From an uncultured Lentisphaeria bacterium (GTDB taxonomy: Bacteria > Verrucomicrobiota > Lentisphaeria > Victivallales > UBA1829), in contig CASDPB010000030.1 in NCBI GenBank assembly GCA_949282305.1, forward strand, positions 1 to 34,427: a DNA stretch of 34,427 nt, in the 5' to 3' direction. Under the pieces are notes generated by a model that saw nothing but the letters and a program-made list of their open reading frames with translations, did no database searches and was not told the DNA's origin. Of the stretch, positions 2 to 7,358 are shown one piece after another (positions within the stretch are counted from its first letter, which is position 1; every line of letters starts with the position of its first letter). A program made the translations under genes and the position numbers.

Positions 2-229
2 GTATTCAAATACGCCGACGAGCGCATCGAACTTCAGAAGGAACTCGACAAACTCCTTTTCGAGCTGAACGAGCTGGATCTGCTCCATGAAGAACGCCGT
101 ATTGAAGTCATGCCGCGTCTCTCGGATTACCTCGACCTCGGAGTCGAAGTGATTGCCGAAAAAGTCGAAATCACCGATGAGCCCGATGAAGAAGATGCCG
201 AGGAGGAAGCTCTTGAGAAGAGCGCCTGA
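2..229 (+). CDS. C-terminal end of an acidic, coiled-coil-like protein (partial)
   Basis: An open frame runs in from the window edge and stops at TGA 227-229, leaving 75 residues with no start codon visible. The first half alternates charged and leucine residues (KELDKLLFELNELDLL) and looks like an amphipathic or coiled-coil helix. The last 20 residues are strongly acidic (repeated E and D), a common solvent-exposed tail. I do not recognise the family. It is followed at 238 by a structured intergenic element and then by three short genes on the same strand, so it is probably the first visible member of a mobile-element accessory operon. The coding call rests on continuous frame, codon use matching its neighbours and position. 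Function unknown. Confidence 0.65.
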   Translation, partial: VFKYADERIELQKELDKLLFELNELDLLHEERRIEVMPRLSDYLDLGVEVIAEKVEITDEPDEEDAEEEALEKSA

Positions 230-237
230 CCAGTCCC

Positions 238-308
238 TCTGTTCTTTGCGCCGCTTTTCCGGCGGACGGATTCCCGTCCGCCGCGCGGCTTCTTTGCGAA
301 AAAACAGA
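238..308 (+). promoter_or_regulatory. Structured leader element, copy A (three stacked helices)
   Basis: The sequence folds as three nested helices. The outer helix is 238-243 with 303-308, extended by 245-247 with 299-301. The middle helix is CCGC 251-254 with GCGG 285-288. The inner helix is a perfect 10-bp stem, 260-269 with 274-283, closed by a 4-nt loop. The right side carries an unpaired CTTCTTTGCG. The same architecture recurs at 1298-1374 with compensatory base changes. It is not followed by a T-tract, so it is not a simple terminator. It ends 38 nt before the ATG of the next gene. A cis-acting RNA (leader, processing site or protein-binding site) is the likely role, by inference. Confidence 0.6.
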
Positions 309-346
309 AGTTCTCAAACTAAAATCAAAATAAGGAGTATGAGAAA

Positions 347-499
347 ATGGCTGCGTATGCAAGAATCTATGGATTTCAGGTTGTCGACGGCAAACACATC
401 AAAGGTCGGGAAGAGGAATTTACCTGCCTCGGTGGTAACTGCTATCTCCCCAATGGCGAATACGAAATGCTTGAGGAAATCCTCGAAAAAGAATTTTAA
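347..499 (+). CDS. Small hypothetical protein, 50 aa
   Basis: The frame starts at ATG 347 and stops at TAA 497-499. AAGGAG at 332-337 lies 9 nt upstream, a good ribosome binding site. The 50-residue product begins MAAYARIYGFQVVDG and ends in an acidic helix (EMLEEILEKEF). It has two cysteines and no membrane segment or signal peptide. The next gene starts 17 nt downstream with its own AAGGAG, so the two are very likely co-transcribed. I do not recognise the family. Small proteins of this kind are typical cargo of conjugative or plasmid-derived elements, which fits the primase and relaxase remnants downstream. Confidence 0.7.
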   Translation: MAAYARIYGFQVVDGKHIKGREEEFTCLGGNCYLPNGEYEMLEEILEKEF

Positions 500-516
500 T
501 CTCAAGGAGTCTGAAC

Positions 517-1260
517 ATGAAAGAAAACATCAAACGGGACAGTGCCATCGATCTGTTCAACGGTATTCTGAAAACGGCGCGCGATGCCGGCGCTTTGCAG
601 GAGCTCGACCGGATTATCGACTACGATTCCGCGTGTGAATTTGAGGAGAAAAATAAACGGCCGATTTCCAATTATGAGTTTAATTGTATCTTCTCTGTCG
701 ATTTCGGCGGTTCGGAAGGCATTTACATTGATGCCTGGCTCAACGGTTATCTGGATGAATCCGGGCATACACAGCGGCTTCATTTCGGTACGATCAAGAC
801 ACTGGAACGCGATCTTGCCGCGATGAAAATCATGGGTGAAGCCTGCGGGATTCTGCAATACTACGCCTCGGCTTATCTCAACAAGAACCTTTCCCGCTAT
901 GAACCCGATCCGACGAAATTGTCGTCATTCCATAATTCGGATACGCCGTTCCGGTGCCGTGCCTGCCAAACAATGGGGAATATCGACGTATTGAAGCGTC
1001 TATGCTCCTGGAATAAACAGATGGAGCAATATGCCTTCCGCTGTGAAAACTGCGGTGCGGAAACCGATTATTTTTCCACGTCCGCCGAGTTGCGCAATGC
1101 CTGGAACAACGGAGAATACTGGATCAGGAAAAGTGACGCGATTCTGGTCAAGCGTGATGCTCTGCAATCCGTTTGTAAACTGCGAGGTCAAGAACCCTGC
1201 AATCTCGACTGTGCCAAATGTCCGTATCAAATCATCCGGGAGTTGCGGCACACGGTATAA
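517..1260 (+). CDS. Zinc-ribbon-containing hypothetical protein, 247 aa
   Basis: ATG 517 is preceded by AAGGAG at 504-509 with normal spacing. The first 130 residues are a mixed alpha/beta region I cannot assign (for example FEEKNKRPISNYEFN and VDFGGSEGIYIDAWL). From residue 147 there is a zinc-ribbon pattern: C147-x2-C150, then C176-x2-C179 (RCENCG). A second cysteine cluster, C228-x3-C232-x2-C235 (CNLDCAKCPY), lies just before the C-terminus. Seven cysteines in such spacing strongly suggest metal binding, either structural zinc or nucleic-acid contact. No enzymatic motif is visible. It belongs to the same gene string as the 50-aa protein and is followed by the second copy of the structured leader. 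Function unknown; a mobile-element accessory role is inferred. Confidence 0.8.
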   Translation: MKENIKRDSAIDLFNGILKTARDAGALQELDRIIDYDSACEFEEKNKRPISNYEFNCIFSVDFGGSEGIYIDAWLNGYLDESGHTQRLHFGTIKTLERDLAAMKIMGEACGILQYYASAYLNKNLSRYEPDPTKLSSFHNSDTPFRCRACQTMGNIDVLKRLCSWNKQMEQYAFRCENCGAETDYFSTSAELRNAWNNGEYWIRKSDAILVKRDALQSVCKLRGQEPCNLDCAKCPYQIIRELRHTV

Positions 1261-1297
1261 AGTCTGGTTATCGAACAACATTTCACGTTAAAAACAA

Positions 1298-1374
1298 AAT
1301 TCAGTTCTTCCGACCGCTTGACCGGCGGATGAAGTCTCATCCGCCGCGCGGCTTCTTTGCGAAAGAACTGAATT
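1298..1374 (+). promoter_or_regulatory. Structured leader element, copy B
   Basis: This is the second copy of the element at 238-308. The outer helix is a perfect 12-bp pairing of 1298-1309 with 1363-1374. The middle helix is CCGC 1314-1317 with GCGG 1348-1351. The inner helix is a perfect 10-bp stem, 1323-1332 with 1337-1346, with a 4-nt loop. The 5-nt left bulge, the single unpaired C on the right and the unpaired CTTCTTTGCG match copy A. Differences within stems are compensated: C-G to T-A, G-C to A-T, and T-A to A-T in the outer helix. The element ends 35 nt before ATG 1410, almost the same spacing as copy A. Confidence 0.65.
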
Positions 1375-1409
1375 CCCCAATAAACCAACAAAAAGAAGGA
1401 ATCAAAAAG

Positions 1410-1844: not shown

Positions 1845-1856
1845 ACCGCCTCATTT

Positions 1857-1894
1857 CCCGGCTGTGAAACACATCTTACAGCCGGGATTTTTCT
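1857..1894 (+). terminator. Rho-independent terminator
   Basis: A 9-bp perfect stem CCCGGCTGT (1857-1865) / ACAGCCGGG (1878-1886) with a 12-nt loop is followed directly by ATTTTTCT. It ends the operon of small accessory genes. Confidence 0.85.
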
Positions 1895-1979
1895 ATTCTT
1901 TGTTACGATCTGCCGAGAGTATTTCACGAACTCCATCCATCAAAGGAATCAAAGTCCGGTATGGTTGAGGAGGATCGTT

Positions 1980-2715
1980 TCCGGCGGCCAAGGTCAATCC
2001 CGCTACGTTGAAGGGGGATGCAGCATCTTTCAGACGACCATCAATCCCGAAATCAACCTGGAAACGAAGTCCCGCTTTTCATACTGGGCGTAGACGAATC
2101 CTGCGAACAGACCCGCAGGATATTGGCGATGCAGCGCCAATATCACACCTTGGAGGCACTGAAAGACCAATCCGCCAAAGAATGAATCATTCGTAAGCAT
2201 CACTCCTTCCAACGCTTGTTGGAACCATGCACTGTGGTCAATCCTTATGCCGAAGAAATTTTCTACGAAGACGACCGTCTCCAAGCCAGAAGAAACCAGC
2301 CCAAATTCCTGAATTTGTGTAAGGCAGTAGCCTTCCTCAACCAGATGAAAAAGCCCCTGAAAAACTACAATGGCATTGACTACCTCGAAGTTTCAAGGGA
2401 AGACATCCAACAAGCAACCAAACTCACTTCCGAGTTACAGGGAATCTCCCTCGACAACCTCTCACTCCCCGCCCGGAACCTCCTCCAGCTCCTGTTGGAG
2501 ATGAACCGGAAGACCTTCACCTGAAAAGAAGTGATGGACCACACCGACTGGACCAAAACCCGCCTCCACATATCCATCTCACAGAGTTAATCGAAATGGA
2601 ACTGGTCCTCCCCGAATCCACGAAGAAAAAACAGCTCCAAACCTACAAACTCCTCTACAACGGCGAAGACCAAGACGGACGCCGATTCGTGCTCGGTTTA
2701 CACGGTGTTCAGTAG
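1980..2715 (+). pseudogene. Decayed C-terminal part of a primase/helicase-like mobile-element protein
   Basis: A protein can be followed across three frames. Frame A (from 1980) gives GGQGQSRYVEGGCSIFQTT then INPEINLETKSRF. Loss of one T near 2076-2079 moves it to frame B, ILGVDESCEQTRRILAMQRQ. A TGA at 2183-2185 interrupts frame B, which resumes as SFQRLLEPCTVVNPYAEEI and DDRLQARRNQPKFLNL. TGA at 2522-2524 interrupts it again before KEVMDHTDWTKTRLHIS. Loss of one base near 2584 shifts it to LIEMELVLPESTKKKQL and YKLLYNGEDQDGRRF, ending at TAG 2713-2715. The pattern (INPE..LE..SRF, 'DE..EQTR', 'RLLEP..VVNPY', 'D.LQ.RR.Q.KFLNL') matches, from memory, the C-terminal part of CHC2-primase-associated helicase-like proteins of integrated elements. 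That family assignment is tentative. The four lesions are directly visible. The left boundary is uncertain and may lie near 1910. Confidence 0.75.
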
Positions 2716-2733
2716 GTATTCACCTAACGCATT

Positions 2734-3006
2734 TTAACGGTTTTCATATTCTTTTATCCAGTCCCATGCTTTTTGGGGCAACCATCCGTTTCGATTTTGT
2801 CGTGTAATATTAACAACAATAAAGGAATCATTGGAATTGATTGTAGCACTAATCTTTTGTTGCCATACTCCCACATCCTCTTGAGTATATATTAACCATG
2901 TGGAGTTCAAATAATGCCACCAAGAGGGTGCGCTTTTTAATAAATCATACAAAGCATCATAATTGGCATTAGGTGTCTTTAAATCATAAGATATAAGGAG
3001 AATCAT
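2734..3006 (-). CDS. Small Cas2-fold / SinR-family-like protein, 90 aa
   Basis: The 90-residue product starts MILLISYDL, with Asp8 in the position of the conserved aspartate of the Cas2/VapD ferredoxin-like fold. The second strand reads WWHYLNSTWLIYT and a third NDSFIVVNIT, followed by a C-terminal WLPQKAWDWIKEY helix. This order resembles small proteins usually annotated as SinR family. AAGGAG lies 8 nt before its ATG, inside the end of the upstream gene. The two genes overlap by four bases (ATGA), so they are translationally coupled. The DNA is visibly more AT-rich than its neighbours, a sign of separate origin. A nuclease or interferase role is possible by fold analogy but not shown. No cas genes or CRISPR array are nearby. 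Confidence 0.75.
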   Translation of the reverse strand: MILLISYDLKTPNANYDALYDLLKSAPSWWHYLNSTWLIYTQEDVGVWQQKISATINSNDSFIVVNITRQNRNGWLPQKAWDWIKEYENR

Positions 3007-3755
3007 TGTCCATTCTCCTTTCTACTTTTAAATTCTTGTTCAGAAATTGCTCTTATATTAAAGCATTGTTTATTGTCCAAATGTTGCCATGAACAACCCT
3101 TCTTCCAAAAAACTTCGATATACTCCGTTACTGGAGATACATCATCCGCATAGACCTTCAGCTCAAAAATATAGGTTCCCGGCATCAATGAGAGAGATAT
3201 ATTTTTTTGCGAAAAGCAAAAAATCATAGACATTGATGTTGGGTTACTCTGAGTCTGATTTGAATTTGAGCTATCTGCGCTATTATTAGAGTTCATTTCT
3301 TCCTGTACATGCAAAAGACGAATATAAGACGACATTCCTTTGCGAATATGAAAAGAATCACTGTCGTTGAGCCATAATAACGGAACAGAAAAAAGCCGTT
3401 TTTTCAACTCCCAAGAATTTCCATCTTCTCGCTGTTCGTAAACCTCATCAATACTTGCTTGACAATTTTTGGCAGTCGCTTTTCCTGCATTGTTAACGCG
3501 AATATGATAGTCGCGGATATTTCTACTTTGACTATCTTCAGGACTTGGAACATCGGTTTCTTTATCGGAGGTGGTGTTCTTCTTCAAATCAACCTCAAGT
3601 GTCAATTTAGGTTTTATAAAAAAAGACCTGATGTAGACACCAAAAATACCTACTACAACAGCACCAATGGTTCCAATGGCAATCAAAGTGTCTAGCGCTA
3701 TAGACAGCTCATCTTTGTATCGCACAATAAAGTTAGGGTCTGGTAAATCTGACAT
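3003..3755 (-). CDS. Single-span membrane protein with beta-rich exposed domain, 250 aa
   Basis: I start at ATG 3755 (MSDLPDPNF) because GAGG lies 5 nt upstream; an ATG 45 nt earlier has no such site. Residues 19-42 (ALDTLIAIGTIGAVVVGIF) form one transmembrane helix. The rest is polar and beta-rich: the segment YHIRVNNAGKATAKNCQASI has the 'V-x-N-x-G-x-A-x-x-C' look of an immunoglobulin-like/CARDB-type strand pair. A serine/asparagine-rich linker lies near residues 165-180 (NSNNSADSSNSNQTQS). It overlaps the downstream Cas2/SinR-like gene by 4 bp, so the two are expressed together. The region is AT-rich and flanked by decayed genes. I do not recognise a named family. A two-gene defence or toxin module with a membrane-anchored partner is an inference from the arrangement. 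Confidence 0.75.
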   Translation of the reverse strand: MSDLPDPNFIVRYKDELSIALDTLIAIGTIGAVVVGIFGVYIRSFFIKPKLTLEVDLKKNTTSDKETDVPSPEDSQSRNIRDYHIRVNNAGKATAKNCQASIDEVYEQREDGNSWELKKRLFSVPLLWLNDSDSFHIRKGMSSYIRLLHVQEEMNSNNSADSSNSNQTQSNPTSMSMIFCFSQKNISLSLMPGTYIFELKVYADDVSPVTEYIEVFWKKGCSWQHLDNKQCFNIRAISEQEFKSRKENGQ

Positions 3756-3848
3756 TTTATCCTCATAATTATAATGATATATCAAAAATATACCATACAT
3801 CTGTTCTTTTTCAAGTCCTTGAATTCTAATAGCAAACTATTCTCTATA

Positions 3849-4691
3849 TCATTTTGCTTTTTCCATAAACTTCATTTCCACTCGGTCAAATACGCGCGGA
3901 ATATAGGAATCCGCCCTTAAGACCTTCTGACCGGAGCAGAACTTCTTCTGGTTAATCGCATTGACCGTGGTTTTGGCGATTTCAGCGGTATGCGTAATGG
4001 TAATGACCTCGGTTTCGGCCAAGACCTGTCTGCCAGATTTCAGAGTGTAGATTTTTGCCTTCTCGTCGAATCGCTGAATGGTATCCCATGCGGCTTGCAG
4101 GGTTAGTTTGCCGAGCTCGTAATCCCAGCGCATGTAGACGAGGTATTGGGCTTTCTCTTCCAATGAGTGGCCGGCGACTTCCGCTTGACAGGCTTTGCGG
4201 AGGGTGCGGATGATCTTCGCATTGGCTTTCAGGAGCGTTGCTCGCTTTTTCTCGTATCGCAATCGGAGTTGTTCGAGCCGGACATTTTGCAGTTCGGTAA
4301 TGTTCTGGCGTTTGGTTGTCAGCTTTTCTTGGAGTTGCACCTTCTCTTCATCCGTGTCGACCAATGACAAACACTGGTGCATGTCATGATTCAGGATTTG
4401 CCGCTTATCTTTGTAGACGGCCTTGATTTTGCGGACTTCCGCTTCGTAGTCTTCCTTCAGGCGGTCTTCGGATTGCAGTTTGTTCGTGTCCCGCGACGGC
4501 AGGTCGAATTCCAGACACGCGCAATATTCGGGCCAATGTTCAATGACCTTGCCTTCGAAGAGGACGACCGTATGCTTCAGCTTTCCAGCGCGAAAAGTAC
4601 GCTTTCGCAAGGCATCCAATGCGGCGGCATCGGGAGCAGGAAACAGCTTCGCTACCGGATGTTGCTCTAATTTCTTCTGAACTTTCGCCAT
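3849..4691 (-). CDS. Coiled-coil hypothetical protein, 280 aa
   Basis: ATG 4691 has GGGGA about 9 nt upstream. The protein has no signal peptide or membrane segment. Residues 1-70 contain a short mixed region (TVVLFEGKVIEHWPEYCACL). Residues 75-175 are long charged helices (KLQSEDRLKEDYEAEVRKIK, then LEQLRLRYEKKRATLLKANA), a likely coiled coil. The C-terminal 80 residues are alpha/beta with YTLKSGRQVLAETEVITITH. It is not part of an obvious operon: the next gene on this strand is about 95 nt further on and has a different base composition. I do not recognise the family. Coding is supported by length, ribosome binding site and steady codon use. A structural or partition-like role in a mobile element is possible but unproven. 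Confidence 0.7.
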   Translation of the reverse strand: MAKVQKKLEQHPVAKLFPAPDAAALDALRKRTFRAGKLKHTVVLFEGKVIEHWPEYCACLEFDLPSRDTNKLQSEDRLKEDYEAEVRKIKAVYKDKRQILNHDMHQCLSLVDTDEEKVQLQEKLTTKRQNITELQNVRLEQLRLRYEKKRATLLKANAKIIRTLRKACQAEVAGHSLEEKAQYLVYMRWDYELGKLTLQAAWDTIQRFDEKAKIYTLKSGRQVLAETEVITITHTAEIAKTTVNAINQKKFCSGQKVLRADSYIPRVFDRVEMKFMEKAK

Positions 4692-5110
4692 TAGCGATTG
4701 TCCCCGCTTGATATTTACAAAGAAATATAATATTGTTATGTTGTAAAGTCAAGCAGAGAAAAGAGATGCATAAGTTTTTTTAAAATATTGGGTTCATCAA
4801 CAGACGCTCCGAAGTGAAGACCGCAGCGCAAGCAATCTTGCGCTCACGTTGAATCTTGACTCTGATTTTGAAAATATACTCTGCAGTTGGGATTGAGTCT
4901 TCTCCCGGTTCAAATATTTCGGATACTCTTTCCGATTCAGGATTATCTCCTTCTTCCTGTAAGTATCTATATTGTATCTTATATAAAAATCAATTAGTGC
5001 TATTAAAATGCCTGTGACGATTCTGGTTGCACTTTTCATAAGCTATATAATCCCAATCAAAATTTGCTATGTCTTTCCTCAATCGCAACAGAACTTGAAG
5101 GCGAACGAAA
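4692..5110. other. Intergenic stretch without a supported gene
   Basis: About 420 bp holding only short overlapping open frames on both strands. None has a convincing ribosome binding site together with recognisable protein sequence. Its composition is AT-rich. It is probably eroded DNA between the coiled-coil gene and the frameshifted gene at 5111. Confidence 0.5.
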
Positions 5111-5444
5111 ATGGAAGAGTTCATCAACAAATTGTATCCGGCAGAGCGGAAATATCTGATAAATCCAATCCCCCAAAAAGCATTCATATCTGCGGCGGTC
5201 AATTCGCCAATCGGCAATTGACGAATTGATCGAATCCTGTTTTTACCAAGGATTTATCTACCCCAAGGCTTCCTTTCATGGTAAGAATATTATCGCCCTG
5301 AAATTCCTTCCCTCTTCCCCAAAAAGCTGTCGCATATATTTGATATTGCAGGGAGAAAAGCCTTGTAAAACCGGCAAATCCCCCTGCAGTTCTCCGATAA
5401 ATTCTTCGATGGCTTTTCCTCATTCCGCATTCACAGAAATATAA
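5111..5444 (+). pseudogene. Frameshifted gene of unknown function (mobile-element type)
   Basis: ATG 5111 is preceded by GAAGG with good spacing. It opens a frame reading MEEFINKLYPAERKYLINP and QKAFISAAVNSPIG, which stops at TGA 5219-5221. In the next frame, starting at once at 5220, the sequence continues as DELIESCFYQGFIYPKASFH and KNIIALKFLPSS and runs to TAA 5442-5444. The two halves look like one conserved globular protein split by a single-base indel close to 5215-5220. The C-terminal third (after about 5330) is less protein-like and may be a second drifted part. I do not recognise the family. The pattern of one good start, two plausible frames and an abrupt stop fits a recently broken gene. 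Confidence 0.5.
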
Positions 5445-5483
5445 CAGTTGATATAAGTGTATAATAACTTGAAAAAGCAACTG

Positions 5484-5846
5484 TCACTCTTGATTTGCTG
5501 ATGCTTTTACATTCACGCCATCGACCGGATAAATACACCGGACACGCTCAAGCTGCAACATACCGTAGAGTTGCTTCTGCGGAGCTGCCGCCGCAATTGT
5601 GAACGAGACTCCAAGCGAAGTATGAATCGCGATCACTCGGAAAGAGCGGTCAGACTTCACCAGCGCCACATGCACCCACGGAATCAGAAAATCCTCCAGT
5701 TCCGTCACGATCCGCAGACGCGGCAGGACATGGGCGCTCCTCTGCCAGCAGACACTCGAATCCAATTCCCCGTCAATCGAATCCCATTCCGTGTCCGGGC
5801 TTACTCCGGCGCTGCCGTTTTGTTCGTTCCTGTTCTCTGTTTTCAT
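5484..5846 (-). CDS. Hypothetical protein, 120 aa, overlapping the relaxase tail
   Basis: ATG 5846 has GGAGG 6 nt upstream, one of the strongest ribosome binding sites in the window, although it lies inside the end of the relaxase gene. The overlap with that gene (which ends at 5773) is 74 bp in another frame. The product begins MKTENRNEQNGSAGVSPDTE. It contains a beta-rich core: RLRIVTELEDFLIPWVHVAL, then SFRVIAIHTSLGVSFTI and RVRCIYPVDGVNV. There is no signal peptide or membrane helix. I do not recognise the family. Tight overlap with a conjugative relaxase suggests that it belongs to the transfer module. Because the relaxase is truncated, this gene may now be transcribed from the duplicated promoter at 7449-7477. 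Confidence 0.65.
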   Translation of the reverse strand: MKTENRNEQNGSAGVSPDTEWDSIDGELDSSVCWQRSAHVLPRLRIVTELEDFLIPWVHVALVKSDRSFRVIAIHTSLGVSFTIAAAAPQKQLYGMLQLERVRCIYPVDGVNVKASANQE

Positions 5847-7358
5847 TGTTTACCTCCGTTCCATATTTTTGATAGAATTGACGCTCGAAATCTTCCAGTT
5901 CACGTAATTCGGTATCTGTTTTCGGGTTGACTTCTTCCATTTGAACACCGGACTTTTCCGGCACGACTGCCAGTGCATCCTTCTTTTGTAAATCCTCCTC
6001 TTCCTGCCGGACGACTGTCTGGCGGTTCTGATAGAACCCGTTCAGCAACAGCATCTTTGAAAGCGCCGCCCTGGTTCTCTTCGTGATTTTGTGCAGGACA
6101 TCCCGGAGTTTGTCCTGCCAGCGTTTCCGCACCAGCTGATGCGGATCAGGCCGACACTCCTGCGTGATCTGCTCCGCGGATTTCCGAACCGGGATCTTCG
6201 TTATTTCGCCCGAGGCAAGCAGGTCATGAACGGAAAGACGTTCCGTCCGAATCGCCATCAGTTTCTTTTTGAAATACTCCTTCTCCGGCACATGCAACGC
6301 CAGGTTGAACTTTCCGCGCGAACAGCCGACATAAAACGCCTGTTTCGACATCTTTTCCGCCGCGACAACCACATTTTTTGAGGTCATTCCCTGCGACGCA
6401 TGGGAAGTCATCACCCAGCCGTATTTCAGTCCGCGGAAATTCTTCGGCAGCCGGATCGTGGTCAGTTCCCGCCGGTTGGAATCCAGCAGAAGATATTCGT
6501 TCCGATTACCCGTCGCAATCGCCAGACTGCCGTTGTTGATCTTGTATTCCGGTGTCCGCAGATTCACCGTAAAACGGACAATATCGCCTTTCCCGACCGG
6601 CAGGGAAACAGCGTTTCCGGCATCGATGCTGCTGCGGATTGCAGACGGCTTCACCGTTTTGCCGTTGCTCAAAACGAGCTTGCCATCTTCAATTTTCACA
6701 ACCTCCGCCATCTCGCCCGGTTTGGCGACGTCCCTGACTTTCGTATTGAAGAATATCTTCATGCCGACCTGATAATTTTCGATGTTGCCGAGCTGCGGCT
6801 TGGTCCAGCCCCAGGAACGGAACGACTCCACCGGATTGGCTTCATCGTTCACGATCCGACCGGCGGCTTTCATTTTCTGCCGGATCATATCCGTCAAAAG
6901 ATCGCACTCCCTGTTGGTCGGCGAAACCGCGATGCAGTCCAGCGGACGTCTGCCGTCGTCAGTCAGTTTTACAAAATCCTCAGCGGCGCGTTCCAGATAA
7001 TCCGCCCTGTCCTCGTGAATGTAACCATGTTCATCCAGATGCTTGAAGCCATCCAGAGCGCTTCCCGCCGAGATCAGCTCAATCCCCCTCCGGTATTCCC
7101 GCACCTGCTGACGGTGAATCTGCGAAAGGCAGGTCTTCGTGATGTTGGAATGACCTTCCAGCAGACGGAAAAAATCGCCCGCTTCCACCGAGGAATGCTG
7201 GCGCTCATCGCCGACAAACAGCACCCGGTATTCGTTCTCCATTGCAAGTTTCATCATCTCCGTTCCCTGCCTGAGCGAGTTCAAGCCGGATTCGTCAATA
7301 ATCAGATACGTGCCTTTCGGCGGCAGCTTGTCCTTGTTCTGCAAAAACATCGCCACCG
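5773..7358 (-). pseudogene. TraA/MobF-type conjugative relaxase-helicase, 5'-truncated
   Basis: The frame carries helicase motifs of the RecD-like half of MobF/TraA relaxases in order: Walker B TYLIIDESGLNS near residue 17, GDERQ (motif III) near residue 54, TSHASQG (motif V) near residue 320 and FYVGCSRGKFN (motif VI) near residue 345. A charged C-terminal tail of about 150 residues follows. The N-terminal relaxase domain, with its tyrosine and three-histidine motif, and the Walker A loop are missing. Full-length members are normally about twice as long. The break falls at 7358/7359, exactly where the inverted repeat begins; the first in-frame GTG (7356) has no ribosome binding site. The remnant cannot nick or pump DNA, so it marks a dead conjugative element. 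Confidence 0.85.

Follow-up and report, generated by a model that had tools for sequence, protein, structure and literature searches.

Conserved three-helix hairpins before small genes of a MobF mobilizable element in Lentisphaerota: possible single-stranded DNA promoters

Introduction

Two copies of a three-helix element precede small genes at one end of a 34,427-nt stretch of DNA from an uncultured Lentisphaeria bacterium. This whole stretch is referred to below as the window. In a preliminary description, the copies were regarded as a selected RNA structure, perhaps a leader common to the genes of one mobile element. The locus raises the question of whether the shape is maintained by selection, on which of the two strands it is used, and what it does there. 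Single-stranded promoters have been established experimentally in enterobacterial plasmids. A survey from 2024 reportedly extended the Frpo-like candidates by means of sequence similarity and sigma-70 boxes.

The two elements and their genes

Element 1 (234..312) and element 2 (1297..1377) are given here in plus-strand coordinates, the minus strand being the proposed folding strand of both. Element 1 contains an outer stem (238-247/299-308), a middle stem (250-254/285-289) and an inner stem (260-269/274-283), with the 9-nt unpaired segment TTCTTTGCG at 290-298. The outer, middle and inner stems of element 2 lie at 1298-1310/1362-1374, 1313-1317/1348-1352 and 1323-1332/1337-1346, respectively, and its unpaired TTCTTTGCG at 1353-1361. 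The common nested helices and bulge sizes of the preliminary description were found in both copies, and its three compensated pairs (267-276 C-G versus 1330-1339 T-A, 269-274 G-C versus 1332-1337 A-T and 240-306 T-A versus 1303-1369 A-T) are correct. The outer stem contains GTTCTTT/AAAGAAC or GTCCTT/AAGGAC. Element 1 has a C.A mismatch at 244/302 and element 2 has C.A at 1310/1362 and A.C at 1313/1352, all of which are G.T or G.U on the opposite strand. The two elements form the top direct-repeat family of the window in a repeat search (93 nt, 75% identity), and their folding z-scores are -5.4 and -5.9, with no shuffled sequence folding equally well. The structure had been said to belong to no named family, and no Rfam family was matched at the gathering score in the window or at E<=5 in positions 150-1450.

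The gene order is methylase/helicase 3' end, element 1, P0001, P0002, element 2, P0003 and terminator. The 3' end of a giant Eco57I-methylase/SNF2-helicase gene (2..229, +) is cut at the contig end, and the same sequence is found downstream of the full gene in genome G052. P0001 (347..499, +) encodes a 50-aa acidic protein, P0002 (517..1260, +) a protein of 247 aa with a Cys-rich, zinc-finger-like stretch at residues 144-222, and P0003 (1410..1844, +), the second gene behind an element, a protein of 144 aa. No confident family was obtained for any of the three from Pfam, PHROGs, NCBIfam or PADLOC. An ordinary intrinsic terminator (1856..1887, +) is located 3' of P0003. The elements end 38 nt before the ATG at 347 and 35 nt before the ATG at 1410, as described earlier, and the absence of a T-tract 3' of both was confirmed. 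No sigma-70-like promoter was recognised in positions 1-2000; the promoter consensus of the host may differ. The 3.6-kb stretch at 1897-5503, between P0003 and a relaxase remnant, is missing from contig C87 of the same genome, which otherwise matches (blastn), and its minus-strand open reading frames (265 aa and 280 aa) have no match in Pfam, NCBIfam or PADLOC.

Further copies and covariation

A core-pattern search identified six further copies, one each on C26 and C87, which are contigs of the window's genome, and two each in G038 and G052. A covariance model was built from these six and the two of the window. When the 137 genomes of the order were searched with this model, held-out copies were recovered in G005 (64 bits) and G109 (46 bits), and with filters off contig C36 of the window's own genome yielded a copy that has diverged strongly (49 bits). 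Each of these three, all highly diverged, lies directly 5' of a P0001 homologue. The family therefore contains 11 copies, two in the window and nine in the same genome and in G038, G052, G005 and G109 of the same order. The covariance model that the preliminary description had envisaged for Lentisphaerota thus did reveal more copies, with compensatory changes and before element genes. Homologous loci of P0001 outside the window number four (G038, G109, G005 and contig C36), and an element is located directly 5' in 4/4. A second covariance model added no copies among 198 genomes of the class, which indicates that the family is narrow. No matches were obtained in viral contigs searched with P0003, the P0001 alignment and the core pattern, or in plasmids and phages. 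Weak covariance-model matches in other genomes (E 0.009-1) look like chance, the best seven on inspection being a terminator, an intergenic hairpin or coding sequence. A loose mechanical structure descriptor applied to all loci was dropped because chance matches were too numerous.

The spacing to the start codon is 35-43 nt across the copies, with a Shine-Dalgarno sequence. A T-tract after the stem is absent in 10/11 copies; in the remaining one, from G052, TTTTTTAA follows. The G109 element (L100/L053, 5' of the P0001 homologue) carries a 35-bp internal duplication in which TTTGGACCGCTTCCCAGACGGCCGGAGTCCCGACC occurs twice, 31 nt apart, possibly as the product of template switching.

Two-sided compensatory changes were found at 11 of the 25 pairs in the 11 copies (shuffle mean 3.2), a number reached in none of 500 shuffles. 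The covariation score is 0.212, compared with 0.088 in shuffles (0/500) and at most 0.113 with slid partners, and 93.3% of cells are paired across the copies. The duplication was spliced out of the G109 row in the manual alignment, and the covariation counts use the unspliced segment only. In the C36 copy, the sequence of the outer stem is largely replaced and its complementarity retained. The asymmetric unpaired segments are conserved as well (2 nt opposite 9-10 nt, and 5-6 nt opposite 1 nt), which would not result if template switching had made an inverted repeat perfect. The secondary structure of the hairpin is under selection and its shape has been conserved by evolution.

The strand that folds

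The noncanonical cells of the 11 copies, read in plus orientation, comprise nine A.C, nine pyrimidine-pyrimidine, two G.T and no purine-purine combinations. After collapsing by eye to independent events, about 17 remain in the main family (seven A.C/C.A, eight pyrimidine-pyrimidine, one or two G.T and no purine-purine), and the strand asymmetry is based on these. Seen from the minus strand, the mismatches become better-tolerated kinds, namely wobbles (G.T/G.U) and G.A, A.A or G.G pairs. Binomial p-values are 0.035 (7/8) or 0.09 (7/9) for the wobbles and 0.0003-0.001 for all events (15 of 16-17). The folding energy of the minus strand is lower than that of the plus strand in 11/11 copies as DNA and in 10/11 as RNA. 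G.U-tolerant pairing was not found on the transcribed plus strand, where one or two G.T events of the main family stand against seven A.C/C.A. The fold is thus supported as being kept on the minus strand, the template of the downstream genes. The mismatch pattern and the folding energies favour a role of the template strand over an mRNA leader. The selected structure of the preliminary description is upheld by the covariation; its leader is probably wrong in view of the strand mismatch pattern.

Mobile element and direction of transfer

The C-terminal remnant of a MobF/TrwC relaxase-helicase is encoded at 5773..7356 (-), and a complete copy is present in contig C87. The relaxase matches TrwC at E 5e-66 and MobF above cut-off. 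The elements are thus part of a mobilizable element of Victivallis-type gut bacteria whose relaxase is a MobF (TrwC) protein, in keeping with the mobile-element part of the earlier reading. The copy in the window may be a relic, its own relaxase being truncated.

Among the upstream regions of related relaxases, 16 contain a perfect hairpin, 4-7 bp long and variable in sequence, followed after 2-4 nt by ATTGC[GC]TYT. The arrangement is on the relaxase-sense strand in all 16, with TTTGCGTTT in place of the motif in one. This candidate oriT lies about 95-167 nt 5' of the relaxase start in loci L108-L119. A nic candidate considered in front of the relaxase gene, the F-like GGGGTGTGTGG, was superseded by the conserved hairpin-ATTGCSTYT arrangement, which could help to locate MobF oriTs in Lentisphaerota. 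In MobF systems, an inverted repeat bound by the relaxase is located immediately 5' of nic (PMC6362355). Together with the polarity of the conserved arrangement, this suggests that the relaxase-sense strand, the minus strand of the window, is the transferred strand (T-strand). The genes behind the elements would then be templated by the T-strand and point toward oriT like the leading genes of F. The orientation of the elements relative to the relaxase gene or remnant on the same contig fits in the window, C87, G052 and C36, with nic a candidate site. The assumption that the relaxase side enters last, at odds with an Frpo-like role, was given up on account of the conserved motif polarity. The relaxase gene is usually found outside the leading region (PMC11541004). 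The polarity deduced here would place it in the leading, early-entering region, which is unusual. On the far side of oriT, a conserved gene encoding 158 aa (L106:4577-5053, +) has an array of TTACGCAC repeats upstream. It has no Pfam match and perhaps encodes a relaxosome accessory repressor like TrwA.

Gene units between the elements are gained and lost. In G052, DUF488 and Fic genes are located between two element copies, and this unit is missing from the window. In C26 and C87, the P0001-P0002 unit is missing and a hybrid element is present, the left part of which is of type 1 and the right edge of type 2, and which continues into the downstream gene of the type-2 element. Homologous recombination between the 80-bp repeats would suffice for this turnover, and a site-specific cassette system would be unneeded. 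Recombination between repeats has been noted for Frpo1/Frpo2 (PMC9849209).

Analogous hairpins in related elements

The corresponding region of related elements contains an ArdC operon (ArdcN E 4e-27) or a ParB-like gene, which matches the parB domain of NCBIfam at E 6e-6, short of the cut-off. Hairpins before these genes have the same orientation as those of the window and end 18-40 nt 5' of the start codon. In G057, G020 and G104 the orientation of such hairpins fits as well. The ParB-like leaders contain a hairpin of 11-13 bp in six close relatives and one more distant relative, with compensations between copies. Those of L153-L159 are short, and GTG(A) forms the 3' edge of their loops. One further C.A change is common to two copies of the ParB leaders. 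The ArdC-operon leader hairpin is located at L137:5532-5612 (+) and in the homologous stretch of L138 (-). In G057 and G020, it is a long hairpin with a layout like that in the window and unrelated sequence, in which the outer stem is 14 bp and 1-2 nt are opposite about 9-11 nt. The hairpins of the two genomes differ by two compensated changes, three C.A and no G.T in the main helices, in line with the strand asymmetry of the main family. The two strands have about equal DNA folding energies in this two-member family and in some of the ParB leaders. In most analogous hairpins, and likewise in the majority of the window-family copies, GTG(A), GCG or ATGA stands directly before the outer stem's right arm. 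Hairpins of -17.5 kcal/mol or lower occur in 19 listed leader genes and in 0/35 control genes (best -16.0), a descriptive comparison only, as the leader-gene list was partly picked after the hairpins were seen. A bulged hairpin also precedes a gene of 60 aa that is related to the small gene before ArdC (L146 reverse complement, about 3789-3897).

Discussion

The elements are interpreted, tentatively, as structured T-strand sites of a mobilizable element of MobF type, with Frpo-like ssDNA promoters as the most likely kind. A stable ssDNA hairpin of the transferred strand, as in Frpo, was found, in that the minus strand, the putative T-strand, folds better in 11/11 copies. No -35/-10 boxes reconstituted by the stem are recognisable (the host consensus may differ), so the elements are not filed as members of Frpo but may work like one. 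The proposed mechanism would begin with the compensation-conserved three-helix hairpin, which has an unpaired segment of 9-10 nt and lies 35-43 nt 5' of start codons. The template of the downstream genes is the minus strand, and this strand is also supported as the one keeping the fold. According to the oriT polarity it would also be the T-strand, so that the genes would enter early and the incoming strand would serve as template. In the recipient, the hairpin may provide a double-stranded platform for RNA polymerase or a dedicated protein. The start of the RNA would lie in the unpaired GTG/GCG segment, at the outer-stem base or close by, and the RNA would continue into the downstream gene, before synthesis of the complementary strand. 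Its products would serve in establishment or anti-defence. ArdC and the ParB-like protein are encoded behind analogous hairpins in related elements, and the small proteins P0001 and P0003 would be candidates for such factors.

It is conceivable, if rather doubtful, that a new class of ssDNA promoters precedes each early gene unit in Lentisphaerota mobilizable elements and is defined by common architecture, not sequence. Such an architecture, equally doubtful, would consist of a long outer stem, an unpaired segment ending in GTG(A) or GCG against the right arm, and optional inner hairpins. Canonical -35/-10 boxes would then not be needed for the host or the element to initiate transcription on ssDNA as it arrives. 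If true, this would suggest that genes are widely expressed early from incoming DNA and that this has escaped notice, and the class would be recognisable only by structure and strand-specific mismatches, in a remote phylum. The question of which strand keeps the wobble pairs provides a general computational test.

The nearest rivals to the ssDNA promoter are a priming site on the same strand and an RNA leader. In a single-strand initiation site, the T-strand hairpin would prime complementary-strand synthesis after transfer, with a primer made there by primase or RNA polymerase, and the place near genes would be secondary. The evidence for the same strand and for the T-strand applies equally, and Frpo is both promoter and primer site according to literature cited in a passage of PMC9849209. 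One site would do, however, and several copies per element at a constant 35-43 nt from a start codon with Shine-Dalgarno sequence make this reading unlikely. A cis-acting mRNA leader (riboswitch, attenuator, protein-binding or stability element) would explain the would-be 5' UTR position and the constant start-codon distance, and the plus strand folds strongly too; as that strand is nearly devoid of G.U and has many A.C and pyrimidine-pyrimidine mismatches, and no Rfam family is matched, a leader is no more probable than a priming site.

An antisense or small RNA made from the minus strand is decidedly improbable. The retained fold with its G.U-compatible changes would suit such an RNA, but no promoter-like site was found on the minus strand in 1-2000, nor a conserved downstream terminator. 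Still less probable is that the elements are recombination sites, belonging to a cassette or integron-like system, or small mobile elements with inverted repeats. Gene units are indeed gained or lost between neighbouring elements in C26, C87 and G052, but RYYYAAC/GTTRRRY boxes and an IntI-like gene were not found, no target duplication was seen, the copies keep one start-codon distance, and homologous recombination between the 80-bp repeats is enough. A decayed terminator of the upstream gene, which TTTTTTAA after one G052 copy might suggest, is just as improbable as the recombination site, given that 10/11 copies have no T-tract and that element 1 and the C36 copy differ in upstream context and precede the same downstream gene.

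Comparison with known systems

The elements share covarying helices with the structured RNAs of Rfam, but no family matches them. Like integron attC sites, they show bottom-strand folding, conservation of structure over sequence and unit-wise gain and loss of genes; unlike attC, they lack RYYYAAC/GTTRRRY core boxes at the outer ends, and an integrase was not found. The MobF oriT of R388 and F has an inverted repeat by nic, and a hairpin likewise lies 5' of the conserved nick-like sequence here, whereas the elements of the window are kilobases away from oriT and are not oriT themselves. Compared with Frpo, by description, the elements are short (about 75 nt), have no recognisable -35/-10 and occur in a Lentisphaerota host, and the relaxase gene would here itself be in the leading region. 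In common with Frpo1/Frpo2 of F and ssi2/ssi3 of ColIb-P9, they are stable stem-loops of the (here probable) T-strand, several per element, directly before genes that the T-strand would template, with genes of anti-defence type (here in related loci) and recombinable repeats (PMC9849209, PMC11541004).
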